Source of the DNA: an uncultured Oxalobacteraceae bacterium
GTDB taxonomy: Bacteria; Pseudomonadota; Gammaproteobacteria; Burkholderiales; Burkholderiaceae_D
Assembly: GCA_903893945.1 (NCBI GenBank)
Contig: CAITOF010000011.1
Span: 1-64,000 of the forward strand
Direction: 5' to 3'
Length of the DNA stretch: 64,000 bases
Shown: positions 7,947 through 58,770 of the stretch, piece by piece
Numbering within the stretch: the first letter of the stretch is position 1
Layout of the letters: every line of letters begins with the position of its first letter
Made by a program: the position numbers and the translations under genes
The notes under the pieces: generated by a model
What the model was told of the DNA's origin: nothing
The model's input: only the letters and a program-made list of their open reading frames with translations
Databases searched by the model: none

Positions 7947-9059
7947 ATGAAAAAATTGCTGTTGACAGGTGCCGCCTGCGTCGTGATGGCTGCAATGAGC
8001 GGTTGCGCGAACGTCGGTGCTGACGCCGTGCGGTCGACCAGACCGCAATATAATGAGGCCATCAAGCAAACCAATGACCAGGATCTGCTGCTCAACCTGT
8101 TGCGCGTCCGGTACGTTGAGTCGATGTATTTCATGAGCGTGGAAAAGGTCGCGCTGACCCGTGAGGTGGATCAGAATTACGGACTGACCGGCAACAAGCT
8201 GTCTGTGGAAAACAGGACCGCTTATCCCGGTACGGTGTCATCGTCCAACTCCGCGCTGGCCAATGCGGTCACGCGTGGCCTGACGCTGCCGGTCTCGGTG
8301 GCTGTCGATGAAAAGCCCACCATATTTTATGCCCCCATCGAAGGCGAAAAATTCGTGCGTCAAATCCTGACGCCGATGAGCCCCGACAAACTTCTGCTGC
8401 AGGTGAAGTCCGGATGGAGTATTGCCAAGGTATTTGGATTGGGTGTTGAGCACCTGAACGGACTGCTGAATGATCCGGATCTGTCTGACGACTCGTATCT
8501 GAAATTCAGACAGGCGGTGACTTTGCTGGAGCGTCTGCATAAAAAACACATGATGTCGTTCTCCACCGTTCAAAGCACATCGAAAGACAGTAACGGCAAT
8601 GACCATATGGTCCTGCATATACAGGATACGACGATGCCCGAATTTGTGCAGCTCGCCCGACTGCTGGCCCTGGATCCTGGCACGCAGGATTTCAAACTGT
8701 GCAATGCCGCCACGTACGTGGATGACAAGACCATCGCATTCAGTACCCGATCACTGGAATCCGCCATCTACTATCTGTCGCACGGTGTTGACCTGACCTC
8801 GTTTGAAAGCGTGGACAGGGCAACTTTCCTTAATGGTGAGGGTTGGAAAAGCTTTCAGGACGACGTATTCAGGGTCAGCTTTTCACAGGAGCCGCCTCGA
8901 AATGCCAGCGTGGCAGTCAACTATCGCGGCGGCTGGTTTTACATCGCTGATCAGGACAAAAATACCAAAGCGACCTTTGTCCTGCTAACCCAGTTGTTGT
9001 CGTTGCACTCGGTGCAGGGAGCGCCGGGACCGAATTTTTCGTTTTCAATCGGTCAATAA
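7947..9059 (+). CDS. Hypothetical lipoprotein
   Basis: MKKLLLTGAACVVMAAMSGCANVG lipobox signal peptide; no further family recognised. Confidence 0.65.
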   Translation: MKKLLLTGAACVVMAAMSGCANVGADAVRSTRPQYNEAIKQTNDQDLLLNLLRVRYVESMYFMSVEKVALTREVDQNYGLTGNKLSVENRTAYPGTVSSSNSALANAVTRGLTLPVSVAVDEKPTIFYAPIEGEKFVRQILTPMSPDKLLLQVKSGWSIAKVFGLGVEHLNGLLNDPDLSDDSYLKFRQAVTLLERLHKKHMMSFSTVQSTSKDSNGNDHMVLHIQDTTMPEFVQLARLLALDPGTQDFKLCNAATYVDDKTIAFSTRSLESAIYYLSHGVDLTSFESVDRATFLNGEGWKSFQDDVFRVSFSQEPPRNASVAVNYRGGWFYIADQDKNTKATFVLLTQLLSLHSVQGAPGPNFSFSIGQ

Positions 9060-9284
9060 GCAGCGGAACCAGTGCCTGTAAGGGTGCATGGCCAGGACCT
9101 GTCGCGGGTGGGGCCCTGCGGCGGCCGTGTCCGGTTTTTCCGAATTTTGCCTGGCAACGCCCAATCGTGCCGATTGGAGAAGCGCGACTTGTAGTTGCAT
9201 GAATGGCCAGTCTACGTTATCTTGACGCTTGTTCCATGTTGCAGCGGCCCGTCAGGTCTGCTTAACCCAAGCTAATTTACCCCA

Positions 9285-10238
9285 ATGACCTTCTTTTCCA
9301 TACTCTGTGCGTTACTGATTGAGCAATTGAAGCCGTTGCGTGCCGATAATCCGATTTATCTGGCAGTGAAGGCGCTGGCATTGCGTGTCGAATCCTGGTG
9401 CAATGCCGGGGAACCGCAGCATGGTCGGTTAGGATGGTGGGTCACCGTGCTGGCGTTGATGATACCTACCGCTCTGGTCTACTGGATATGCCTCAAAGTG
9501 AGTATATTCGCTGCGCTGGGCTGGAACATACTCATTGTTTACTTAACCTTGGGTTTCCGACATTACAGCCATTACTTCACCTCAATTCAACTGGCACTCC
9601 ACTCGGGCGATGAAGAAACCGCACGGCAGTTGTTGGCAGAATGGACACGTAGCGATACGTCCGGACTGGATACGTCTGAAATTGTGCGAATTGCCGTTGA
9701 AAAATCGTTAATAACCACGCATCGTAACGTATTCGGTGTATTTTTCTGGTTTTTGATGCCAGTCGGTCCGGCCTGCGCGGTCATGTACCGGGTTGCTGAA
9801 CACCTGTCGCGTGCCTGGAACGAGCCGCACCATATGAAAAACGAAGCGTTTGGCGACTATGCAGCAAGAATTTTTTACCTGATTGACTGGATTCCGTCGC
9901 GATTAACCGCGATCGCATTTGCTGTTGTCGGCAATTTTGAAGATGCAATTTATGCCTGGCGTAACTTTGCCCACCGATGGAAAAATGAATCCGAAGGCAT
10001 CATTCTCGCGTCCGGCGGCGGAGCGATCGGTGTGCGACTTGGCTCGCCCGAAGAAAATGCGGTCGTGTTGCCCATGGATGCTGCGCTGGTGGATTCGGCG
10101 GCGCCTGAACCTGAAATTATTCCCGGGGAACCGGCGAGTATCCGTTCCTTGCAAAGTGCCGTGGGCCTGGTGTGGCGTGCGTTGCTTTTGTGGATGTTCC
10201 TGCTGTTAATCCTGTCAATGGCGGTCTGGCTGGCGTAG
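9285..10238 (+). CDS. CobD/CbiB-AmpE-like integral membrane protein
   Basis: Multi-TM; YLTLGFRHYSHYFTSIQLALHSGDEETARQLLAEW and VFGVFFWFLMPVGPACAVMYRVAEHL resemble the CobD/CbiB-like family next to DUF3579 in Burkholderiales. Confidence 0.7.
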   Translation: MTFFSILCALLIEQLKPLRADNPIYLAVKALALRVESWCNAGEPQHGRLGWWVTVLALMIPTALVYWICLKVSIFAALGWNILIVYLTLGFRHYSHYFTSIQLALHSGDEETARQLLAEWTRSDTSGLDTSEIVRIAVEKSLITTHRNVFGVFFWFLMPVGPACAVMYRVAEHLSRAWNEPHHMKNEAFGDYAARIFYLIDWIPSRLTAIAFAVVGNFEDAIYAWRNFAHRWKNESEGIILASGGGAIGVRLGSPEENAVVLPMDAALVDSAAPEPEIIPGEPASIRSLQSAVGLVWRALLLWMFLLLILSMAVWLA

Positions 10239-46442: not shown

Positions 46443-48173
46443 ATGCTTAATCAAAAACAATTGAATCGCACGCTGTTTATTTTTGCGGCACTTTTATTCT
46501 CAAGTTTTGTTTTTCCCCTGCATTCCCCCCCGTTTCGTACCTATTATCATGAATTGCTCGGCGCGTTGAGTGTTATTTGCGCGCTGGGCTCAATGACCTG
46601 TCTGCCACAAATTAAATTGACTATACCAAAACTGGTTATTCTTCCGGTGGGTCTGATCATCATAATTGCTATCCAGACCAAGGTGGGCTTGATTCTTTTT
46701 CCAGTAGACATGGTATTTCCCGTACTGACCTTATTGTGTTTTATCTGCGCGCAGATTTTTGGGGCGACAGTCGCAGCGCAGGACAATGGTATTGAAAAGT
46801 TAAGCATGGCGTTGGCATTGGCATTTGTCGTGACGGGGCTCGTTTCTGTGATTCTGCAGCACATCCAGCTGTTAGATCTGCATTGGCGACCTCTGGTTTT
46901 CCCGTTGCTTTCCAAGGTGCAGGTACGGCCCTACGGAAATCTGGCGCAACCCAATTTATTGGCATTGCTGCTGTGTTTTTCTGTGGCGTCGATCTGGTAT
47001 ATCTACTTAAAGGAAAAAATTAAACCGATCGCTGGCCTGGTCATTGTTGTTTTTTTGCTGTGGGGTTTGGCACTTACTCAATCGCGCATCGCATGGATAA
47101 TCTTACCAATCTTTTTTGCAGGCTGCTGGCAACCGCCGGCGCATACCCGGAAAATCCCAGGTGCGGTGCTTTCGGCGCTGCTGCTCTGTTTTGTGGCTTT
47201 TGTTTTTGTGTTGCCTTATTTCTTTTCTTTATTTGGATTGACTATCGAATCGCTCAAGGAACATGCCGGACAGACGTCGGTTCGAACGGTGCTTTGGCAA
47301 CAGGCATTGCAAATGAGTTTTATGCACCCCTGGATGGGCGCAGGCTGGTACCAGTTTGGTCCCCAACAGATTTTGTTGTCGACCTATTTCAGTCCGGCCG
47401 AATATGCGGATAATGCGCACAATATAGTCATGAATTTTGTTGCTGAAATAGGGTGGCCAAGTACGGTGTTGATTGTTGTTGGCATGGCATATTGGTTCTA
47501 CTCCTGCTGCATTCGACATTGGCAAAATCTTCAGGTCAGGTTCATGAGCCTTACATTGCTTGCGGTAGCTGTACATAGCATGGTTGAATATCCCATGTGG
47601 TTCTGTTTCGTATTGATGCCCTGTGGCGTCATGCTTGGCGCATTGCATGTTGAGAACTTGGGTCTGGAGCGCGTGGTTGTTTCAAGGAAAGCCCTGATTG
47701 CATTTTTTGTGGCGGCGGCAATTATTGGCGCTGACGTTACGTGGGATTATGTTCGTGTTGTCTATGGATTTGTTGCCTTAAATTGGCAACAGGAGGGCAA
47801 AAAAACAGGTCTGGGTAGCACAGAGAAACCCGAATTTACCTTGCTGCCCCAGTTTTATGATTATTTTCGAATTTTAAAAATCGATGTTGCGCCGGGAATA
47901 TCCAAAGAAGATCTGAAATTTGTAGAACAACTGTCACTGCGATTTGGTCATCCGGTGGTGCTGAACCGACTGGCGTTAATTTATGCAAATAACGAAAAGC
48001 CGAATGAGGCACTTCAAGTCCTTATTACGATGCAACGATTATTCAGGGTACAGTATGTTGACAGCTACGCAGACTGGAAAAAATATGCGCAGCTTTCACC
48101 CGAGCTGTACGGCGAAATATTCAAACGATTGCCGCAGCCAGACACGATCGGCGAAGCGACTACGTCCAAATAG
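46443..48173 (+). CDS. PglL/O-antigen-ligase-like O-oligosaccharyltransferase
   Basis: Multi-TM with RPYGNLAQPNLLALLLCFS and LGLTQSRIAW-like segment LALTQSRIAWIILPIF; next to pilins. Confidence 0.85.
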   Translation: MLNQKQLNRTLFIFAALLFSSFVFPLHSPPFRTYYHELLGALSVICALGSMTCLPQIKLTIPKLVILPVGLIIIIAIQTKVGLILFPVDMVFPVLTLLCFICAQIFGATVAAQDNGIEKLSMALALAFVVTGLVSVILQHIQLLDLHWRPLVFPLLSKVQVRPYGNLAQPNLLALLLCFSVASIWYIYLKEKIKPIAGLVIVVFLLWGLALTQSRIAWIILPIFFAGCWQPPAHTRKIPGAVLSALLLCFVAFVFVLPYFFSLFGLTIESLKEHAGQTSVRTVLWQQALQMSFMHPWMGAGWYQFGPQQILLSTYFSPAEYADNAHNIVMNFVAEIGWPSTVLIVVGMAYWFYSCCIRHWQNLQVRFMSLTLLAVAVHSMVEYPMWFCFVLMPCGVMLGALHVENLGLERVVVSRKALIAFFVAAAIIGADVTWDYVRVVYGFVALNWQQEGKKTGLGSTEKPEFTLLPQFYDYFRILKIDVAPGISKEDLKFVEQLSLRFGHPVVLNRLALIYANNEKPNEALQVLITMQRLFRVQYVDSYADWKKYAQLSPELYGEIFKRLPQPDTIGEATTSK

Positions 48174-48259: not shown

Positions 48260-51200
48260 CTATCTGTTTATGAATTGGGCAGAGGTTGAGGAAAATTGTC
48301 TCAAGAACCCCAGCATCTGTTTAAGGGATTCTGGCCCGTCAAGCGCATTTGCTTTCGGTGTTGAATATTCCAGGTACAAATTATCGTCGTTGGAAATCAT
48401 AAAATCACTGCTGGACTCGAAAGATTTAACCAGGTGGTTCACGTCGTCTGGTGTCAGCATCAGCGTCCGGGAAATTTCTGCTGGTTTCAGGTCCGCCTGC
48501 TGCAACAGCGTCAGTAAGCCGGCATGGTCGGTCATTAATTTCAGCGCTACCTCGGACGGCAGGTGTTGTTCATTCTTTGTGGCGATTATAATTCCTTGCC
48601 CACCAATAATATACAACCTGACGTTTGGGAAAACGGATCGGACTGTACTCAAGATGCATGCAATATCAACGGGCGTCATGTGATGTAACTGTACCCACTG
48701 CTGAAGCACACCATTGTCAGTCAATCGTTTTGAAACCAGCTCATAGAATTCCTGATTGTAAAGTGATGCTGCGCCCGCGAACCAGATCGATGTTATTTCC
48801 ATGCTGATGAGATCGTATTTTTTATTCTGCAATAAAAGAAAGTTCCTGCCATCAGTAATGTAAGTATGAACGCCTGCTTGCTCTGAAACCCTGGCATTCA
48901 CATTTGAAAAATGTGTATTCGCGAGTTGGATAAGATCTTTACTCAAGTCGACGATATCGAGTTGGTTAAAACCAGATTCTTTGATCGCTCGCGCACTGAC
49001 ACCTGTTCCGTAGCCGATAACCAGAGCGCTGTCTCTGTACGACGTGTGCAATAGCGGGGCGATTGCGAACCCGAGTTGAGCCCGCATTTCACCCTGGATA
49101 TCATTGTTTCCCTGAAATTTGCCGTTGGTAAGCAGTGTTTTAACCTGGACATTTACACTGTTCTGTTTAATCGCCACTGAAGTCAATCCACCGTCCACAC
49201 TCTCAGTGTGTGCGATCACATGACCGTTATTCTGGAACTGGAAATAGACATTCGATCCTGAAGATAATTTTGTATAGTCAAATGTGGATGGCTGTCCGGC
49301 AAATAAAATGAGAACCACCATTGTGCAACCCAGAACCAGACCATTTTTCAGTCTCTTGACTGACAGTGCCGCCATCAAACTGGCGATTAGGCAGATGGTT
49401 GCTGCGACCCAGATTGATTTTTGGGTACCTATCATCGGAAGCAATATAAAACCGCCGGCTAATGTCCCAACAATGTTGCCCACGGTATTTATGCCAATGG
49501 CGCTGCCTAGCAGGGGTACCTGATTTTTCTTCTGATTTTTATGGGCGACAAGCTCAATGGCTAAAGGGTAACAGGCGCCGATAATCAATGCCGGCGGAAA
49601 CATCATGAACCAGCATGCGATAGCCCGGATCGTTTCACGTTCGATAAAATTCAAATGGTAGGGATAAACCCCGTATGCCGCAAACATGGCTGGCAGGCTG
49701 TTCCATTGAAAATTGCCAATTAACAGTATGCCTGACAAACATGAGAGCAGAACGGAAAGTACCAATGTGATTGATATTTTAATATCGAGCAGATGACGCG
49801 CTGCAATGGAGCCTGCGCCCAGCCCTAATAATAATGAAAACAGCATCAAAGAAAATGCATAGACGCTATTGCCCGCCACAACAGCCAATAACTGCATGTA
49901 GTTCACTTCAATTAACAGTGTTACGCAACCTGTCAGGAATAAAGTGAGCATGGCGGACCAAACTGCCCGGTGTTCGGCGGGTTGCGAGGTGACCTGTGAC
50001 AGGTCATCAGCATGAGTTGTAGTCACTTCACCCGTTTTAAAGTGGGCCGACTTGTTTAACTGCATTGCAGTCAACGCCACTGCCATACTTCCTACGGCGC
50101 TCAACGCAATTGAGCTGGATACTCCCAATGTTGGCAGCAGAATATAGCCGGACAGGAGTGCGCCGGTTGCTGCCCCTAACGTATTTGCACCATACAGGTT
50201 TGAAACGGCACCGCCCGCCGTCCACCCTTTGCGCTGCAATTCGGTCACCATGACAGGCAAGGTCATGCCCATAAGTATCGTTGGAATCAGAAGTACAAGG
50301 CCGCCAGCCCCCATGCGCAATATTATCAGGACCGGGGAATCAGGTGGAATGGCTTGTGCCATGGCGACATAAGCCACTTGTACGTAACGGAAAAAAACAG
50401 GCGTTGCCAGACAATACAGTCCAATGACCAGCTCACAGCTGGCATACAGAATCAGGCCACTTTTGGAGCTGCGGTTGACCACCAGTCCGCCGAGCCATGC
50501 ACCGATAGCCATACCACTCATATATACGATAAGTATAGTATAGGTGGCCGTTGACATGCTTCCGAAAGTTAATGACAGTTGTTTTGAAAATACGACCTCG
50601 TACATTAATCCGGTGAATCCGGAAACGAAGAACAGGGCCGGAATAACATATTTTCTTGGAGAGACTCCTTTCCCCGTCATGCGTTGCGCTAACGGTGTGC
50701 AGTATCCCCACACTTCGTATGGCCAAATCCGTTGATACACAAAAAGGCTGCCGAGGATGGTAATAAGGCTGACCAGGTAAATAAGACCAGGGATGACCTG
50801 AAATAAAATTAATCCATAACGCACTAATACCACCCAACCTAACCATAGGCTGATACCCGCGATGATGGCAAACAGGCGATATTTCTGACCCTGGTCTGTT
50901 ACGTGCGTGCAGTAAGACTGGATGGCAACAATAAACGGGAACGACACGACCAGATCGATGAGGTAGTGTTCTCCCTTGCCCAGTGTTGCCATAAAAGTTA
51001 ACGCGGTCGCAACGTAAAGAAGCAGGTTGAGAATTTTGGAACGCTGGTAACGTGCTGTGAATACTAACATCAGGCAGGTGCCGAAATGCATGGAGGGGAG
51101 GCCATTGCGGTATACCGGAGTAACGATCGTGCCAAAGTCAATGACTTTGCTTAATTCGGGTAAGGCATTTGGAAAAAAATCTTTGCCAAATAAATAAATC

Positions 51201-51727
51201 GGTCCGGTGATCGGGCACAGGTGATAAGCAATCAGGCAGGATAACGTGGACACAACCCAGACAAGTAGCATGTTTGCAGGTGGCATTTGTTTGCATCGCA
51301 GCTGCAGCGCATAGATCAATGGGAAACCAAAAGCGATGAATTCGTAGTCGGCATCCAGAATTGTCGCCAGGCGAGGTACCGCAGCATAAAGCTTTGCGAT
51401 AGCGGCGCTCGGGTTAAATCCTGATGTGGCATCAATATGATAGGCCACCGCATCAAACGTTATCGGGTGTAACAGTGTGGTCAAATCGAGCAGGGTATAT
51501 GCGCTGAACTGCAATATGTTGGCGAAAACATAGAAGTCAATTAATTTTTGCCTTGTTTGCTGGCTTTCTTCACCTTTCTTTGTGGTGAGCAGGGTCAACA
51601 AAATGGAGGCCAGTCCGATTCCAATGCTGGAGATGACGATATTGTTAAAGCTCCAGAATTGCAGATTCCATTCGACTGGGTGAACCAGCCAGACTAATCC
51701 GAATGACGCAATGCCCGCTACGATCAA
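48260..51727 (-). CDS. Fusion: PAP2-type phosphatase domain + MFS-like TM domain + spermidine-synthase-like domain
   Basis: 1155 aa; PAP2 motifs GLPSMHFGTCL and LGKGEHYLIDLVVSFPF; repeated TMs; C-terminal DSALVIGYGTGVSARAIKESGFNQLDIVDLS...YDLISMEITSIWFAGAASLYNQEFYELVSKRL. TTG start after AGGGGG. Confidence 0.8.
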   Translation of the reverse strand: MIVAGIASFGLVWLVHPVEWNLQFWSFNNIVISSIGIGLASILLTLLTTKKGEESQQTRQKLIDFYVFANILQFSAYTLLDLTTLLHPITFDAVAYHIDATSGFNPSAAIAKLYAAVPRLATILDADYEFIAFGFPLIYALQLRCKQMPPANMLLVWVVSTLSCLIAYHLCPITGPIYLFGKDFFPNALPELSKVIDFGTIVTPVYRNGLPSMHFGTCLMLVFTARYQRSKILNLLLYVATALTFMATLGKGEHYLIDLVVSFPFIVAIQSYCTHVTDQGQKYRLFAIIAGISLWLGWVVLVRYGLILFQVIPGLIYLVSLITILGSLFVYQRIWPYEVWGYCTPLAQRMTGKGVSPRKYVIPALFFVSGFTGLMYEVVFSKQLSLTFGSMSTATYTILIVYMSGMAIGAWLGGLVVNRSSKSGLILYASCELVIGLYCLATPVFFRYVQVAYVAMAQAIPPDSPVLIILRMGAGGLVLLIPTILMGMTLPVMVTELQRKGWTAGGAVSNLYGANTLGAATGALLSGYILLPTLGVSSSIALSAVGSMAVALTAMQLNKSAHFKTGEVTTTHADDLSQVTSQPAEHRAVWSAMLTLFLTGCVTLLIEVNYMQLLAVVAGNSVYAFSLMLFSLLLGLGAGSIAARHLLDIKISITLVLSVLLSCLSGILLIGNFQWNSLPAMFAAYGVYPYHLNFIERETIRAIACWFMMFPPALIIGACYPLAIELVAHKNQKKNQVPLLGSAIGINTVGNIVGTLAGGFILLPMIGTQKSIWVAATICLIASLMAALSVKRLKNGLVLGCTMVVLILFAGQPSTFDYTKLSSGSNVYFQFQNNGHVIAHTESVDGGLTSVAIKQNSVNVQVKTLLTNGKFQGNNDIQGEMRAQLGFAIAPLLHTSYRDSALVIGYGTGVSARAIKESGFNQLDIVDLSKDLIQLANTHFSNVNARVSEQAGVHTYITDGRNFLLLQNKKYDLISMEITSIWFAGAASLYNQEFYELVSKRLTDNGVLQQWVQLHHMTPVDIACILSTVRSVFPNVRLYIIGGQGIIIATKNEQHLPSEVALKLMTDHAGLLTLLQQADLKPAEISRTLMLTPDDVNHLVKSFESSSDFMISNDDNLYLEYSTPKANALDGPESLKQMLGFLRQFSSTSAQFINR

Positions 51728-51733
51728 TACCCC

Positions 51734-51949
51734 CTAATCTTTCAAGTCTCTTCGGATTGCAAGGAAAGGAATCAGGCAGGTGATCATAATGTAGCCAGTA
51801 ATCACATAGAGCTTGATCGAGCCAAAATTGCTAAAAATATCCAGATTTCCGTTATTTTGAGTTATCCCTGACTTGAATAGCAAAAAGGACAGTAACAGCA
51901 TCAAAATGGATATGGTTCTTATTATTTTATGTTCGTCAGTTATTTTCAT
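51734..51949 (-). CDS. Small two-TM membrane protein
   Basis: MKITDEHKIIRTISILMLLLSFLLFKSG...VITGYIMITCLIPFLAIRRDLKD; start at 51949 within ORF 51734..52066; stop 6 nt before the fusion start. Confidence 0.6.
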   Translation of the reverse strand: MKITDEHKIIRTISILMLLLSFLLFKSGITQNNGNLDIFSNFGSIKLYVITGYIMITCLIPFLAIRRDLKD

Positions 51950-52020
51950 TTTCTGGTTCTGTGATGTGTGTGTGGGATTTCCAGGTATAGGCAGAAATAT
52001 TATAGCGCAGGTGTTCGATT

Positions 52021-52380
52021 TCAGATGTTGCGGGCAATTGAATGCGAGCAGCAACTTGCACTGCACAGAGCGGACTGAATCACATCCAGCGCTCTCTGTG
52101 GTTCCGATTTACCGCACATGAAAATATCCACGGCGGCAAACCCCGACTCGGGCCAGGTATGGATCGACATATGCGATTCTGCCAGCAGCACGACGCCGGT
52201 TACACCCAGTCCTGGGCCGAAATGATGAAAGTGGCTGGATAAAATGGTTGCACCCGCCGCTATGGCGCTGTCGGTCAGCATTCGTTCCAACAAGGGTAAA
52301 TCGGCGAGTTTGGCAGGACTGATACCGCGTAAATCGGCCAGCAGGTGCTGGCCCGCTGGCTGGAACCGGGTTGACGTCAT
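52021..52380 (-). CDS. speD: S-adenosylmethionine decarboxylase proenzyme (short prokaryotic class)
   Basis: AESHMSIHTWPESGFAAVDIFMCG pyruvoyl-precursor motif; 119 aa. Confidence 0.93.
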   Translation of the reverse strand: MTSTRFQPAGQHLLADLRGISPAKLADLPLLERMLTDSAIAAGATILSSHFHHFGPGLGVTGVVLLAESHMSIHTWPESGFAAVDIFMCGKSEPQRALDVIQSALCSASCCSHSIARNI

Positions 52381-52571
52381 TTGTGGCCGCCACTGCCACC
52401 GACGCCACCACTGCCCCAGGAACCGCCACCCATGAACGAACTCCAGCCGCTGCCGTGGCTGGCGCCGGTATGGTACGGGTCATTGGTTCCTGCAGCCAGC
52501 AATTTTTGCCACGCAAATCCGGTGGTGAGTATGGTGACAATGATTGCGTAGATGGTAAATTTTTTATTCAT
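52377..52571 (-). CDS. Small secreted Gly/Ser/His-rich peptide
   Basis: MNKKFTIYAIIVTILTTGFAWQKLLAAGTNDPYHTGASHGSGWSSFMGGGSWGSGGVGGSGGHK; overlaps upstream DUF4178 by 8 nt and speD by 4 nt. Confidence 0.75.
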   Translation of the reverse strand: MNKKFTIYAIIVTILTTGFAWQKLLAAGTNDPYHTGASHGSGWSSFMGGGSWGSGGVGGSGGHK

Positions 52572-54003
52572 TATTGTAGGTATCCAGATACCTGGCGGGA
52601 TAGTAGATGGCAGCGATGCCAAAGCCAATTGCGAGCCATGAGAGTGGCGAGAGCAGCAGCGGAATCAGGTTTAACAGCAGAATGATCCAGATGAATTTGG
52701 TCGAAACGCTTTTTATCGATTCGGTGCTACCGGTTTTGTGCGCATCCACTGTCTGTCCAAACCAGGCGTGAATCTGGTCAGCGCTGACTGGTGTGGATTG
52801 TGACCAGGTGATTTCAGATGCGGTTATTTCAGCAGCGAGTTTGATCTGTCCGTTCTGAAATTCGACGACTTCAGTCTGGTAGCCGATGCCGACGCGCCAG
52901 TTGAAGGCGCCGATCGCGTAGATGACCCGTGCCGGATAACGGTACAGCTTGTTATACGTTGTATTGCCGAGCACTGCAGCATTCTCCTCTGCCCAGATCG
53001 GCCACTCATCCATGACGTGCGCCCTTGCCCAGCCCTGGTCTGTTTCAATTATCCAGAAAAAGCCCGCAGTGGGATGGTGTAACAGGTATTCTGTCCAGAC
53101 GCTGTTTTCATTGTCGGCGACGCGCATCAGGCCGATGATCTGGAACGCTTTGCCGTTGATGGTGGCCTGTGCGCCCAGTTCGAGAGTGGTTGCATGCTGC
53201 GCGACTGCATTGGCCTGGGTTAATACCTGTGCCGTGCTGCCTGATACATCGACCTGTGCGTGGCAACTTGGACAAATTAACGTGGAGGTCAGTCCCGGTA
53301 CAATCGAGGTGTTGCTGCCGCAGGAAGGGCAGGTCAGGGTCTGGATTTTGCCATGGTATTTACCGGCTGCCGCCTGGATCTGGTCTTCCTCGCGCAACAG
53401 CTGGCATTTTAGCTCGTCCAGGGTAACGGCCTGGCCAACAAAAATCCTGGGCGTGCCGGGCTCGGAATAATCCAGTGTCAGAAAACTGCGGCCACTGCGC
53501 AGATCAGCGACTTTTGCCTGCCAGCCGCTGCCAACTTTAAACGGCAACTCGCCCTGACCGCCGATACAATCTGCCGTCCTGACATCGGATGCGGTATAGC
53601 TGTGTCCGCCGATGGTATAGGCACGCGCGGGAATGAGCGACGTAAAAGGAGGGACGTTACTGCCACCGTGAACTTCGGAGGTGAGCATGTACTGGCCCGA
53701 TGCATCGCCGAGCCAGGCCGTTTTCCCGTTGTCGAACATCACGTACCATTCATTCCACATGCCGTCGGCGTAACGTAACTGTATGCGACCTATCACGGTA
53801 AACACATTACCGCCGAACGTTCCGGAGGTGTTGATCTGTATCGGTGAATAATCTTCCAGCACGTCAGACATCTTGCCAAGATCCTTGACCGAATCGAGGT
53901 CTTTCAGTACGGTGGTTTTACAGTACTCGCAAACGGCCATGACCGACGCGGTTGACCGGAATTGAACTTGTGCTCCACAGCTTGGGCAAGAAATAGTCTG
54001 CAT
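52564..54003 (-). CDS. DUF4178 domain protein with two zinc-ribbon-like motifs and C-terminal TM
   Basis: CPSCGAQ...CEYCKT and CPSCGSN...CPSCHAQ; duplicated DUF4178-like modules; C-terminal hydrophobic segments. Confidence 0.8.
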   Translation of the reverse strand: MQTISCPSCGAQVQFRSTASVMAVCEYCKTTVLKDLDSVKDLGKMSDVLEDYSPIQINTSGTFGGNVFTVIGRIQLRYADGMWNEWYVMFDNGKTAWLGDASGQYMLTSEVHGGSNVPPFTSLIPARAYTIGGHSYTASDVRTADCIGGQGELPFKVGSGWQAKVADLRSGRSFLTLDYSEPGTPRIFVGQAVTLDELKCQLLREEDQIQAAAGKYHGKIQTLTCPSCGSNTSIVPGLTSTLICPSCHAQVDVSGSTAQVLTQANAVAQHATTLELGAQATINGKAFQIIGLMRVADNENSVWTEYLLHHPTAGFFWIIETDQGWARAHVMDEWPIWAEENAAVLGNTTYNKLYRYPARVIYAIGAFNWRVGIGYQTEVVEFQNGQIKLAAEITASEITWSQSTPVSADQIHAWFGQTVDAHKTGSTESIKSVSTKFIWIILLLNLIPLLLSPLSWLAIGFGIAAIYYPARYLDTYNNE

Positions 54004-54015
54004 GTGGTTTAGACG

Positions 54016-55050
54016 CTACCCAATAAGTTTTTTAAGCAGTTCGGTTTTGGCAGTATCGTAATCGGCAGCGGAAATCAATCCTTTGTCCAGCAAGCCTTTC
54101 AGTTTTTCGAGGCGGGCTTCAACCGGCTCATCGCCCGGCACCGTGGCTGCCGCAGTAACGGTTGCTGCAGTTGCTGGCGAGGTGGTCATGCCCTGCGACA
54201 TGACCTGGCCGAACGCCACGCCCGATGCCAGGCCGGCCCCGAGTCCGGCCAGGCCGCCTTCGTTTTGGGCAGCCAGTGGAATGGAGCTGGCCACCTGATA
54301 TTGGGTAAAGCCGGCCATCTTGTCATGGCTTAATCCGCCTTTCATTCCGGCAGAAATGCGCTCATCCAGCGCAGCCTGCAATTCCTCTGGCAGGCTGACG
54401 CTGGTGACATTGAATTCATCCAGTCCCAGTCCATACTTGTCAAATGCCTTGCTCAAATCACCTTTAACCTGTTGCGCCATCAGGGTCTGGTTGGCAGCCA
54501 TATCCAGAAAGGGCACATTTGCTGCGCCCAGTGAATTGGCCATGGTGGCCATTGTAATGCCACGTAACTGGTCTTCCACTTCGTCACGCGTGTACTGGTC
54601 GCGTGTGCCACTGATTTCAGTGAAGAATTTCTTCGCGTCGGTGATCCGGTAGGAATACATGCCGAAGGCACGGATGCGCACCATGTCAAAATCCTTGTCG
54701 CGGATCGTGATCGGCTGCGCCGTACCCCATTTACGGCCGGTCTGGATACGTGTGCTGAAAAAATAAACATCGGATTTAAACGGGGACTCAAATAATTTGT
54801 CCCAGTTTTTCAGATAGGTCAGTACCGGCAGCGTGTTGGTGGTCAGTTTGTGGTTGCCGGGGCCGAATACATCCGCCACCTGACCTTCATTGACGAAGAC
54901 TGCGATCTGTGACTCACGAACGGTGAGTGTCCCGCCATTCTGGATTTCAAAGTCCTGCATCGGATAACGCCAGGCCAGCACGCCATCCACCTCTTCGTTC
55001 CATTGCAGAATGTCGATAAACTGTTTTTTGATGAAAGATCCAAAGCTCAT
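54016..55050 (-). CDS. SPFH/band-7-like protein with C-terminal SHOCT-like motif
   Basis: LTVRESQIAVFVNEGQVADVFGPGNHKLTTNTLPVLTYLKNW; YDJ/virion-core-protein type; C-terminal EARLEKLKGLLDKGLISAADYDTAKTELLKKL. Confidence 0.85.
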   Translation of the reverse strand: MSFGSFIKKQFIDILQWNEEVDGVLAWRYPMQDFEIQNGGTLTVRESQIAVFVNEGQVADVFGPGNHKLTTNTLPVLTYLKNWDKLFESPFKSDVYFFSTRIQTGRKWGTAQPITIRDKDFDMVRIRAFGMYSYRITDAKKFFTEISGTRDQYTRDEVEDQLRGITMATMANSLGAANVPFLDMAANQTLMAQQVKGDLSKAFDKYGLGLDEFNVTSVSLPEELQAALDERISAGMKGGLSHDKMAGFTQYQVASSIPLAAQNEGGLAGLGAGLASGVAFGQVMSQGMTTSPATAATVTAAATVPGDEPVEARLEKLKGLLDKGLISAADYDTAKTELLKKLIG

Positions 55051-55138
55051 GATGTTCTCACTTGTGTCTGTGACGTGGTTAATATACCAAAGATCAGGAA
55101 ATAATCCGAAAAACCGCCGATAAAAGGGTCAGAAAGAA

Positions 55139-55525
55139 TCAGGAGATGCAGGCCGCGTTAATCGCTCCTATGCACAGCGATATCGCGCCCATTAAGCCAC
55201 CAAAGGCGGTGTTGCCGGATTCAATGTGGTTTTTGGAGATGTGCAGCAGGCGCACCGTCACGGCGTAGGCGACCACCTGCACGACCATTGCGCCAGCCGC
55301 CCAGGCCAGAAATTCGACATAACTGGCTGTGTGCAGGATACTTGACGCAACGGGAAGGGAAAATCCGATGAGTGAACCACTGGTGGCAAGCATCGCCGCA
55401 TTATTGCCTTGACGGATCAGCAAGATTTCATCGATCGTGGTGATGTAGGTGTAGACAATAAAAAAAACCACGAGGAGTGCACAGCCGGTCAGCAAATGGA
55501 TCGCATAATTGATAATCGCAGGCAT
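55139..55525 (-). CDS. DUF350 (YjfL-like) membrane protein
   Basis: 128 aa with four hydrophobic segments; TSGSLIGFSLPVASSILHTASYVEFLAWAAGAMVVQVVAY; G-rich last TM. Confidence 0.8.
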   Translation of the reverse strand: MPAIINYAIHLLTGCALLVVFFIVYTYITTIDEILLIRQGNNAAMLATSGSLIGFSLPVASSILHTASYVEFLAWAAGAMVVQVVAYAVTVRLLHISKNHIESGNTAFGGLMGAISLCIGAINAACIS

Positions 55526-55563
55526 CGGACCCTCACTTTTTCAGATGAAATGATGTTGTCAAA

Positions 55564-55584
55564 ATTAGCGGCAAATTCGCTAAT
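55564..55584. promoter_or_regulatory. Palindrome in the divergent intergenic region
   Basis: ATTAGCG-GCAAATT-CGCTAAT, perfect 7-bp arms, in the 93-bp gap between DUF350 and the aminopropyltransferase gene. Confidence 0.5.
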
Positions 55585-55618
55585 ATGAGTTAAAGTATAT
55601 TAAACCAAAAGACCCGCC

Positions 55619-57130
55619 ATGCCTAAAAAAATATTAATCCTCTCCGTCTTTATTGTCGCATCCTGTGGCCTCGCGTATGAGCTGATTGCCGGTGCCCTGT
55701 CGAGCTACCTGCTGGGTGACTCCATTCTGCAGTTTTCAACCATCATAGGCTGTTATCTTTTTGCTATGGGCGTAGGTGCGCATTGTTCAAAATTCATACG
55801 GGACGAGGACCTGCTGGCGCGCTTTGTGGATATTGAACTGGCGGTCGGTTTTATTGGCGGCATGTCTGCAGCTCTGCTGTTCCTGACATTTTCGTGGATG
55901 GCTGCGCCGTTTCGAACGCTGCTTTATGTGCTGGTTTTTCTGATCGGTGCGCTGGTCGGGATGGAAGTACCACTGGTCATGCGTGTGTTAAATTCCCGGC
56001 AGACCGAATTCAGTGAGCTGGTCAGCCGGGTGCTGACGTTTGATTATCTGGGTGCACTGGCTGTTTCGTTACTTTTCCCGCTGGTACTGGCGCCTTATCT
56101 GGGGCTGGTGCGGACCGGATTTTTATTCGGCATGCTGAATATTGGCGTTGCGCTGTGGACGATCCACACGTTTCGTCACGAATTAAAACAGGTGGGCACC
56201 CGTCTGTTGCGTGCCGCGACCGTGCTCTGCCTGCTGGTCGCCGGATTTTCATTTTCGGACACCATGGTCTACTGGGGCGAGCATGGCCTGTACGGCGACG
56301 AAATTATTTATTCGACCACGACCCCCTACCAGCGACTGGTGATCACACGCTGGAAAGATGATTTGCGCCTTTACATTAACGGCAATCTGCAATTTTCGTC
56401 CCGTGACGAATATCGTTACCATGAAGCGCTGATTCATCCGGCACTCGAAACCCTGCCCTGGGCGCGCTCGGTACTGATCCTGGGTGGCGGCGACGGACTG
56501 GCGTTGCGTGAAGTATTACGCTATACCAATATCACCTCGGTGACGCTGGTGGATCTGGATCCTGCCATGACCACGGCGTTCACCCGGCGCGACGAGCTCG
56601 CCCGACTCAATCTGCACTCGTTCAGTGACCCGCGTGTCACGGTGATCAATGCGGATGCGGCAATCTGGCTGCAGCAAAATCAGGACATGTTTGATGCCGT
56701 GATTGTCGATTTTCCCGATCCTTCCAGCTTTGCACTGGGAAAATTATATTCGGTACCGTTTTACGGCATGGTAAAAAAACACATGGCGGTCAACGGCCTG
56801 ATCGTGGTGCAGTCGACGTCGCCGTTTTTTGCCCCGCATGCGTACTGGACCATCGATGCCACGTTAAGGGAAGTCGGGTTGATGACCTATCCCTATCATC
56901 TGTATGTGCCTTCATTCGGCGAGTGGGGCTTCGTCATCGCCTCACCTGAACTGCACTTTGAGGTGCCCACCCATTATCGGTTGCCGATGCGCTATCTGAA
57001 TCAGGAAACGACACGGGAAATGTTCCAGTTTCCGCCGGATATGCAACGGCTCAGGATGGAGCCGAATCGTCTGGACACCCAATCGCTGGTGCGCGAGTTC
57101 GAGCAGGATTGGCGTCAGGTGATCCGGTAA
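55619..57130 (+). CDS. Polyamine aminopropyltransferase (spermidine synthase-like) with N-terminal TM domain
   Basis: Seven or so N-terminal hydrophobic segments, then STTTPYQRLVITRWKDDLRLYINGNLQFSSRDEYRYHEALIHPALETLPWARSVLILGGGDGLALREVLRY...DAVIVDFPDPSSFALGKLYS. Confidence 0.9.
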   Translation: MPKKILILSVFIVASCGLAYELIAGALSSYLLGDSILQFSTIIGCYLFAMGVGAHCSKFIRDEDLLARFVDIELAVGFIGGMSAALLFLTFSWMAAPFRTLLYVLVFLIGALVGMEVPLVMRVLNSRQTEFSELVSRVLTFDYLGALAVSLLFPLVLAPYLGLVRTGFLFGMLNIGVALWTIHTFRHELKQVGTRLLRAATVLCLLVAGFSFSDTMVYWGEHGLYGDEIIYSTTTPYQRLVITRWKDDLRLYINGNLQFSSRDEYRYHEALIHPALETLPWARSVLILGGGDGLALREVLRYTNITSVTLVDLDPAMTTAFTRRDELARLNLHSFSDPRVTVINADAAIWLQQNQDMFDAVIVDFPDPSSFALGKLYSVPFYGMVKKHMAVNGLIVVQSTSPFFAPHAYWTIDATLREVGLMTYPYHLYVPSFGEWGFVIASPELHFEVPTHYRLPMRYLNQETTREMFQFPPDMQRLRMEPNRLDTQSLVREFEQDWRQVIR

Positions 57131-58770
57131 TGGATCGACGCTCATTTTTACTGTGGAGCGGGATGGCCGGGGCCGCGGGTCTGGCCAGTGCCGCCGGGTT
57201 CTGGCGATGGCAGGAAATTCCGGCGAGCGTGGCGTCTCCCGGAAGGCTGGAAGGCCATTATTTACGTGACCGGCAGAGCTTGCCCGCCCCATCGGAAACA
57301 TTGCATGCCGATATCGCCATTCTGGGCTCCGGGATTGCCGGCCTGACGGCTGCGTGGAAGCTGAACCGGGAAGGGCATGATGACTTCTTAATGGTGCAGG
57401 GCCCTGAGCTGTTTGGCAACGCGGCCGGTGGCATGATGGATGGCATGCCTTACCCGACGGGCGCGCATTATTTACCGGTTCCTTCAGCAGAATCGTTCCA
57501 TGTGCGTGAAATCCTGTCGGATCTGGGCATCATTCTGCGTAATCCGGAGAGCGAAAAGCCTTATTACGATGAACGGTTTTTGCTGCATGCGCCGGAGGAA
57601 CGTTTGCTGTACCAGGGGCGCTGGCAGGAAGGTGTGATTCCCGGCGAGGGTGTGCCACAGCAGGATTTGATTGAACACCGGCGGTTTTTCAGTGAAGTCG
57701 ATCGCTTGCGCCAATATCGTGATGCCAGCGGCAAACGTCTGTTCGCGATTCCAAGCGTGCTGTCTTCCAGTGATGCCGAATGGCAGGAGCTGGACCGGAT
57801 TACCTTTAAACAGTGGCTGGATAAAAATAATTATAAATCAGCGACATTGCACTGGTATTTGAATTATTGCTGCCGCGATGATTTTGGCGCACGGTTCGAT
57901 AAAGTCTCGGCCTGGGCAGGACTGCACTATTTTTGCAGTCGCATCGGTAAGGCAGAAAATGCAGAAAACGGGGCATGGCTGACCTGGTCCGGCGGCTTGC
58001 AGCCGCTGGCGGACGCGATGGATAAAAAGGCCGGTTCGCGCAGGAAACCGGGGACGGTTTTCCATGTCGGGACGACCTCACAGGGTATTGAGGCGCACTG
58101 CTTTGAGATAAAAAACGGTCAGCCCAGAACCTACCGGATTCTGGCGCGAAAGGCTATCTGTGCCATGCCGTTATTTGTGGCAGCACGTGTTGTCGAATCC
58201 ATTCAGGATCTGGGCTTTGATCCGCAGCAGCATATGCCGTCGTACGCGCCGTGGCTGGTTGCGAATTTTCTGATGAAAGAATTTCCCTTTGAGTTGCCGG
58301 ATGCGCCACTGTCCTGGGATAATGTCGTGTATCAGGAACCGGGTCTGGGTTACGTGGTATCGACCCATCAGGATATTCGGGTTGCCCCGCCGCCGGAAAC
58401 GGTATTCACGTCGTATGTGGCCTTGTCAAATCATGATCCCGTCGCTGCGCGGGCCTGGATGATGCAGGCGACACCCGCTGAACTGCTTGATGTGGTCAGC
58501 GCCGACCTGAAATCAGCCTATGGCTGGAAATTGGCTGCCTGTGCCAGGCGTGTGGAGATTACGCTGCGCGGCCATGCCATGGCCATACCCATGCCGCAGT
58601 TCCGCAGCAATCCCGGCCTGAAGGCCTTGCGTGAATTGAATGGCGCGCTGCTGTTTGCGCATTCGGATCTGTCCGGCTTTTCGGTGTTTGAAGAGGCCGC
58701 GTGGTGGGGCTACCGGGCCGCGACACTGGCGCTCGGAACTGACCCGGCCACGGCAGTCACGAAAGGCTGA
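57130..58770 (+). CDS. FAD/NAD(P)-binding oxidoreductase with Tat-like signal
   Basis: MDRRSFLLWSGMAGAAGLASAAG twin-Arg-like N-terminus; ADIAILGSGIAGLTAAWKLNREGHDDFLMVQG Rossmann motif; TAATG overlap with upstream stop. Confidence 0.82.
   Translation: MDRRSFLLWSGMAGAAGLASAAGFWRWQEIPASVASPGRLEGHYLRDRQSLPAPSETLHADIAILGSGIAGLTAAWKLNREGHDDFLMVQGPELFGNAAGGMMDGMPYPTGAHYLPVPSAESFHVREILSDLGIILRNPESEKPYYDERFLLHAPEERLLYQGRWQEGVIPGEGVPQQDLIEHRRFFSEVDRLRQYRDASGKRLFAIPSVLSSSDAEWQELDRITFKQWLDKNNYKSATLHWYLNYCCRDDFGARFDKVSAWAGLHYFCSRIGKAENAENGAWLTWSGGLQPLADAMDKKAGSRRKPGTVFHVGTTSQGIEAHCFEIKNGQPRTYRILARKAICAMPLFVAARVVESIQDLGFDPQQHMPSYAPWLVANFLMKEFPFELPDAPLSWDNVVYQEPGLGYVVSTHQDIRVAPPPETVFTSYVALSNHDPVAARAWMMQATPAELLDVVSADLKSAYGWKLAACARRVEITLRGHAMAIPMPQFRSNPGLKALRELNGALLFAHSDLSGFSVFEEAAWWGYRAATLALGTDPATAVTKG

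Follow-up and report, generated by a model that had tools for sequence, protein, structure and literature searches.

We describe here a polyamine-related gene cluster from an uncultured Oxalobacteraceae bacterium, found in a window of 64,000 nucleotides (contig CAITOF010000011.1, positions 1 to 64,000), and propose a substrate for its membrane-bound aminopropyltransferase homologue, the membrane SpeE. The cluster is a unit of seven genes (52021-58770) encoding SpeD, a glycine-rich peptide, a DUF4178 protein, an SPFH protein and a DUF350 protein and, divergently, the membrane SpeE and a flavin amine oxidase. The glycine-rich peptide ends in lysine, as does every tail that we identified at related loci (102 of 102, with arginine in none, across Pseudomonadota and one Gemmatimonadota plasmid). 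The lysine side chain resembles putrescine, with a chain of four carbons that bears a primary amine; we therefore propose that SpeE may aminopropylate the C-terminal lysine of an envelope tail and so produce a spermidine-like tail, an assignment to which we give an even chance. The unit is laid out as follows:

52021-52380, minus strand: SpeD, a class-1b S-adenosylmethionine decarboxylase (PF02675, 4.6e-34; TIGR03330, 4.1e-37)
52377-52571, minus strand: glycine-rich peptide of 64 residues (no family match)
52564-54003, minus strand: DUF4178 protein, which has this domain twice, two zinc ribbons and, at its C-terminus, a hairpin of two transmembrane (TM) helices (PF13785, 2.4e-22)
54016-55050, minus strand: SPFH/Band_7_1 protein with a C-terminal SHOCT domain (PF13421, 5.6e-75; PF09851, 1.2e-06)
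55139-55525, minus strand: DUF350 (YjfL-like) membrane protein (PF03994, 7.8e-29)
55526-55618: divergent intergenic region of 93 bp, the putative shared promoter region
55619-57130, plus strand: membrane SpeE, a seven-TM domain followed by an aminopropyltransferase domain (NF002956, 685 bits)
57130-58770, plus strand: flavin amine oxidase (FAD oxidoreductase) with a twin-arginine N-terminus (PF01593, 5.4e-6; PF10518)

These genes had been named in an earlier, sequence-only reading of the window, and open reading frame (ORF) calls and profile searches found all of them where that reading had placed them, on the same strands and in the same families. The overlaps of 8 nt between the DUF4178 and peptide genes and of 4 nt between the peptide and SpeD genes are real, as is the divergent plus-strand pair across the 93-bp gap, in which the oxidase start and the SpeE stop share one base. 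A promoter scan of that gap gave no consensus promoter above shuffled background. The absence of an ATP-grasp ligase also holds among the cluster genes. What the earlier reading overlooked is the peptide's invariant C-terminal lysine.

Related loci came from a scan of a genome collection and from 196 surveyed genomes that belong to the family of the window genome. The order SpeD, peptide, DUF4178, SPFH and DUF350, divergent from SpeE and the oxidase, is kept in nearly all of 69 related DUF4178 loci, and the SPFH and DUF350 genes were found in nearly all family loci. Such a recurring order is far beyond chance. DUF4178 and the membrane SpeE occur together in 67 of the 196 genomes, DUF4178 alone in 2, SpeE alone in none and neither in 127 (Fisher p = 8e-51, relatedness not corrected for); in one of the two DUF4178-only genomes the locus is cut by a contig end. 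SpeD accompanies the membrane SpeE in 66 of 67 family genomes. With the phylum surveys, the cluster was found again throughout Burkholderiales, on one Gemmatimonadota plasmid and in both Alpha- and Gammaproteobacteria. The co-occurrence thus extends beyond close relatives, contrary to the refuting condition proposed with the earlier reading. One family locus (L052, genome G084) has SpeD, an HK-ended peptide, DUF4178, SPFH, DUF350 and the oxidase, and the membrane SpeE is absent from the stretch; it also holds a transposase-like ORF at 8003-9334, and perhaps represents a natural loss of SpeE.

The tails themselves differ greatly in form. The window peptide consists of an N-terminal hydrophobic segment and a Gly/Ser-rich tail with the C-terminus ...GGSGGHK, and the family loci carry between DUF4178 and SpeD a short ORF of the same design, with (G/S)HK at the stop codon. 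His-Lys forms the last two residues in all 58 family peptides scored. The terminal codons vary among these 58 loci (AAG in 35 and AAA in 23; CAC in 44 and CAT in 14), and this synonymous variation means that selection acts on the amino acids. The peptide has no Pfam or NCBIfam family and no significant PHROGs match, and where a gene table exists it is annotated only as a hypothetical protein. Elsewhere in Burkholderiales, and in one gammaproteobacterial genome, the tail is instead fused to the C-terminus of the DUF4178 protein after an extra hydrophobic segment (..GGYTSGGSHK, ..GYSSGGAHK; L135-L139, L142, L143, L145). Alphaproteobacterial and related loci have a separate small TM protein ending in FGR(V/I)K, RGGK, PGSGK or PTHK, and loci of the PspA type have a protein of 300-400 residues beside DUF350, mostly lipoprotein-like, ending in RRGK, SRGK or FGGK. 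Alteromonas carries a 510-residue lipoprotein with an SSGK end, and the Gemmatimonadota plasmid (Gemmatirosa) an ORF with an RHGK end and an uncertain start. Judged by their sequences, the tail proteins at membrane-SpeE loci are non-homologous envelope proteins that share a terminal lysine.

We also selected candidate ORFs blindly, by tail composition and a hydrophobic segment, with the last residue ignored. Of the 148 candidates that had such a segment, 95 ended in lysine; of the 472 that lacked it, 8 did. Many of the non-lysine candidates resemble antisense or out-of-frame ORFs. Invariant C-termini can act as recognition signals, which raises the alternative of a tail that acts as a signal for sorting or assembly, its lysine unmodified or attacked by the oxidase in the manner of a lysyl oxidase, with SpeE acting elsewhere. 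The oxidase being an amine oxidase by fold would suit this. However, the Lys-ended tail persists at loci in which no oxidase relative was detected (L144-L148, L158-L181), and the constant partner of the tail is the membrane SpeE; we consider this explanation very unlikely.

That the lysine is modified is suggested by a comparison with Escherichia coli. In the E. coli yjfIJKLMC and ygiBC systems, as in the window, DUF350 (YjfL) and an envelope protein whose tail is rich in Gly and Ser stand beside a polyamine-attaching enzyme. Unlike the window cluster, these systems use an ATP-grasp ligase and preformed spermidine, and their tails end in Gly-Gly. The ligases YgiC and YjfC bear the RefSeq name peptide-spermidine ligase, a naming that follows Pederick et al. 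2023 as cited in PMC12270671. All five DUF1190 proteins inspected end in Gly-Gly, namely YgiB (..SMGG), YjfM (..HWGG) and three further ones, two of which lie beside DUF350 and two of which are followed by an ATP-grasp-like ORF. Genome G000 has no DUF1190 protein, and the window tail ends in HK, not Gly-Gly. Thus the end of the tail tracks the type of polyamine-attaching enzyme, lysine with one and Gly-Gly with the other, and in this it behaves like a substrate.

The membrane SpeE appears well equipped for such a reaction. Its canonical donor-binding GGGDG and catalytic DxxDP motifs are present, and Q258, D263-E264, YH267-268, GGGDG, D314 and D364xxD367 are retained in nearly all of 104 homologs, together with the protein's own signatures QSTSP..A and PSFGEWG. 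The catalytic domain matches by fold the solved spermidine synthases and aminopropyltransferases 1uir and 1jq3, and follows a domain with seven TM helices by hydropathy. Lysine plus arginine counts per loop in the 104 homologs average about 1.1, 2.7, 3.2 and 3.6 on the inner side and 0.3, 0.7 and 0.9 on the outer side, from which the catalytic domain is predicted to be periplasmic. The tails, with their hydrophobic segment or lipoprotein character, and the RRxFL motif of the oxidase are predicted to face the same side. Conserved acidic residues in the TM domain (E21, E116 and D142) would fit the passage of a cation, for instance decarboxylated S-adenosylmethionine (dcSAM).

The enzyme that would supply this donor is also intact. 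The window SpeD carries the motif AESHMSIHTWPE...MCG, in which the pyruvoyl serine, the catalytic histidine, the cysteine and the proline of WPE are all kept, the active-site residues being those given in PMC10407285. The family SpeDs, read in frame, have the same motif. Pattern matching for SpeD and twin-arginine translocation (Tat) motifs sometimes hit the wrong frame in GC-rich loci, and its counts are not used as rates. With the WPE proline, serine, histidine and cysteine retained, it is unlikely that SpeD has become an ornithine or arginine decarboxylase. It is the sole S-adenosylmethionine decarboxylase (AdoMetDC) match in the genome. Among 43 genomes of the phylum surveys with a membrane SpeE, 32 have a class-1 AdoMetDC and 8 more a class-2 enzyme, and the donor enzyme is therefore present in 40. 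In the Gammaproteobacteria G357, G410, G484, G510, G512, G522, G534 and G554 the AdoMetDC is of the class-2, eukaryote type (PF01536) and class-1 is missing. SpeD homologues also lie near the PspA-type membrane-SpeE loci L146, L147, L148 and L181.

Complete SpeD and SpeE active sites, and the NCBI family name polyamine aminopropyltransferase, would fit ordinary spermidine synthesis by a membrane-tethered spermidine synthase with the remaining genes as bystanders. This is difficult to reconcile with a fixed architecture of seven genes and with a catalytic domain that is predicted to be in the periplasm. In addition, a different SpeD occurs in 19 family genomes that lack the cluster, mostly within an open frame that also encodes a SpeE domain, and production of putrescine and 2-hydroxyputrescine has been reported for the betaproteobacterium Ralstonia pickettii (PMC7857480). 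We regard ordinary spermidine synthesis as the most improbable of the explanations considered here.

The oxidase adds a further element. Its N-terminal RRxFL motif is invariant at R3, R4, F6 and L7 in nine aligned proteins, so that it is probably periplasmic by a twin-arginine signal, and it has the FAD-binding Rossmann motif GSGIAGLTAAW. Searching the PDB by sequence alone gave no match; a fold search with its AlphaFold2 model (pLDDT 84) succeeded, the best entries being putrescine oxidase (2yg7), MAO (8p84) and the spermidine dehydrogenase SpdH (7d9g). Together with the intact residues of SpeD and SpeE, this fold supports the earlier suggestion of an aminopropylated product made at the membrane or envelope, along with amine oxidation.

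Clusters of an AdoMetDC, a membrane-fused spermidine-synthase-like protein and DUF350 were reportedly described by Li et al. in 2019 (Biochem J 476:2579). Such fusions are said to have given no spermidine and no complementation, and their substrate was reportedly thought to be other than putrescine. Class-2 AdoMetDC is said to accompany them as well, and it does so in some genomes here too. Those clusters reportedly share with ours a SpeD with intact motifs, a SpdSyn domain placed C-terminally on a multi-TM domain, and a DUF350 gene; they differ in that the present cluster adds SPFH, DUF4178, a Tat-signal amine oxidase and a Lys-ended tail, and that a specific substrate is now proposed. Why membrane-fused spermidine-synthase homologues should come with AdoMetDC and yet reportedly yield no spermidine has been a puzzle since at least 2019.

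One alternative is that SpeE modifies a free small amine, for example putrescine, 2-hydroxyputrescine, agmatine or a similar compound, delivering a polyamine into the periplasm, where the lysine tail binds, senses or anchors it. SpeE is indeed closest in the PDB to aminopropyltransferases that use free amines, and the resemblance of the oxidase to putrescine oxidase and spermidine dehydrogenase points the same way. Such an activity leaves unexplained, however, why non-homologous tails end in lysine and never in arginine, and why Gly-Gly ends are found beside ATP-grasp ligases, and the lack of spermidine and of complementation reported for such fusions speaks against it; we think it unlikely, though it deserves to be kept in mind. 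A lipid head group such as phosphatidylethanolamine is another conceivable acceptor, the tail then helping to position enzyme or product. The fusion of the catalytic domain to seven TM helices and the membrane partners SPFH and DUF350 would agree with that, but none of the genes conserved in the cluster across the 69 loci belongs to lipid metabolism and the terminal lysine would have no role, which makes a lipid acceptor quite improbable.

Aminopropylation of the C-terminal lysine could proceed in the following way. SpeD would produce dcSAM in the cytosol, and the seven-helix domain of SpeE would perhaps carry this donor across the membrane. The periplasmic SpeE domain would then aminopropylate the terminal lysine of the tail at its side-chain amine. 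The resulting residue, N6-(3-aminopropyl)lysine, would have (CH2)4-NH-(CH2)3-NH2 as its side chain, so that the flexible envelope tail would bear a spermidine-like cap. Where present, the Tat-signal oxidase may oxidise or trim the capped amine. The SPFH protein, a probable membrane scaffold, could form with DUF4178 and DUF350 (and with PspA in other lineages) the membrane platform for the complex. The capped tail might serve the cell as a flexible polycationic finger for anionic lipids or lipopolysaccharide. Whereas the conservation of the genes, of their catalytic residues and of the terminal lysine can be read from the sequences themselves, topology and location are predictions, and the acceptor, the movement of the donor, the part played by the oxidase and the benefit to the cell are proposals. 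A broader idea, that periplasmic membrane SpeE and exported dcSAM cap the C-terminal lysines of Gly/Ser-rich envelope tails as a widespread posttranslational modification, and jointly with it that this capping and the YgiC/YjfC route have converged in function, provided that those enzymes ligate spermidine to Gly-Gly DUF1190 ends, is offered more tentatively, and we lean slightly towards doubting it.

Several observations weigh against lysine capping. We know of no precedent for a periplasmic enzyme that uses dcSAM, and export of the donor is hypothetical. The AlphaFold2 model of SpeE also gives seven helices, but the confidence of its TM part is too low to interpret, and thus the topology rests on the positive-inside counts. 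AdoMetDC was not detected in 3 of the 43 phylum genomes, one of which is 71% complete. In the alphaproteobacterial loci L146-L148 and L181, SpeD reads ESHILISTWPE or ESHILVSTWPE; because serine replaces the catalytic histidine, these SpeDs may have lost the AdoMetDC role. No tail adjoins the membrane SpeE at two loci, L160 and L176, and L177 is ambiguous. Six tails (L137, L149, L153, L154, L186 and L187) were picked by hand when the lysine rule was already suspected. Finally, the terminal lysine could serve binding or sorting instead.

Chemically, capping would have two relatives. Hypusine is formed on eIF5A, a cytosolic protein, when deoxyhypusine synthase transfers an aminobutyl group from spermidine to an internal lysine. 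The proposed cap is likewise a polyamine-derived chain on a lysine side chain, but it is an aminopropyl group, the lysine is C-terminal and the carrier is an envelope peptide. Microcin C offers a precedent for peptide-linked aminopropylation, as MccD/MccE place an aminopropyl group on a peptide-derived molecule near its C-terminus (PMC10491745) and the Bacillus subtilis version uses dcSAM, according to the title of a JACS 2025 paper cited in PMC13381572. In contrast to the window cluster, the acceptor there is the phosphate of a nucleotide antibiotic, and different enzymes act with no membrane system.

The cluster type as such has also been described by Ravi et al. 2024 (PMC11237479), whose PSP-associated operons contain a CesT/Tir-PspA dyad, a 7TM-spermine synthase, DUF350, DUF4178 and a Ctha_1186 lipoprotein, with variants that have band-7, AdoMetDC and polyamine oxidase; the authors raised "aminopropylation of other substrates". 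DUF350, DUF4178 and 7TM-SpeE are common to both, as are the band-7, AdoMetDC and polyamine oxidase genes of their variants. Unlike those operons, the window cluster has no PspA or CesT gene; the dyad is absent from its genes and from the recurring order, with SPFH there instead. PspA-like genes occur in the distant relatives L146, L148, L158 and L173. On an Alteromonas mediterranea plasmid (L190, 9539-10645), a TelA-like "toxic anion resistance" gene lies beside DUF4178, where other loci carry PspA. The main text of Ravi et al. mentions neither a Gly-rich peptide nor its fusions nor a shared C-terminal lysine, and the literature available to us makes no mention of the peptide, its fused forms, the C-terminal lysine or the tail as a substrate. 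With the cluster type already described in 2019 and 2024, what is new is the lysine rule together with the proposed substrate. The rule points to a definite substrate, predicts a shift in mass and lends itself to a simple test with a mutant. If the proposal is true, bacteria would have a relative of the hypusine idea, the chemistry of S-adenosylmethionine would reach the periplasm, and envelope systems with DUF350, DUF4178, SPFH and PspA would be joined by one theme, the polyamine-capped envelope tail.

While the cluster was borne out as a conserved unit, the sequence-only reading had extended it by two further minus-strand genes, which indeed lie 6 nt apart:

51734-51949, minus strand: small TM protein, adjoining the conserved unit and outside it
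48260-51727, minus strand: 1155-residue fusion of PAP2 and two MFS_SpdSyn-like modules, outside the conserved unit

We rejected both as members, as each was kept in 0 of the 69 loci and the GC content drops from 53-57% to 45-50% at about 52.0 kb, where their stretch begins. The SpeE-like domain of the fusion moreover has VIGYGTG and MEITSIW in place of the aminopropyltransferase motifs GGGDG and DxxDP, and is therefore not to be counted as an aminopropyltransferase. Within this lower-GC stretch, it adjoins an O-antigen-ligase/PglL-like gene (46443-48173).

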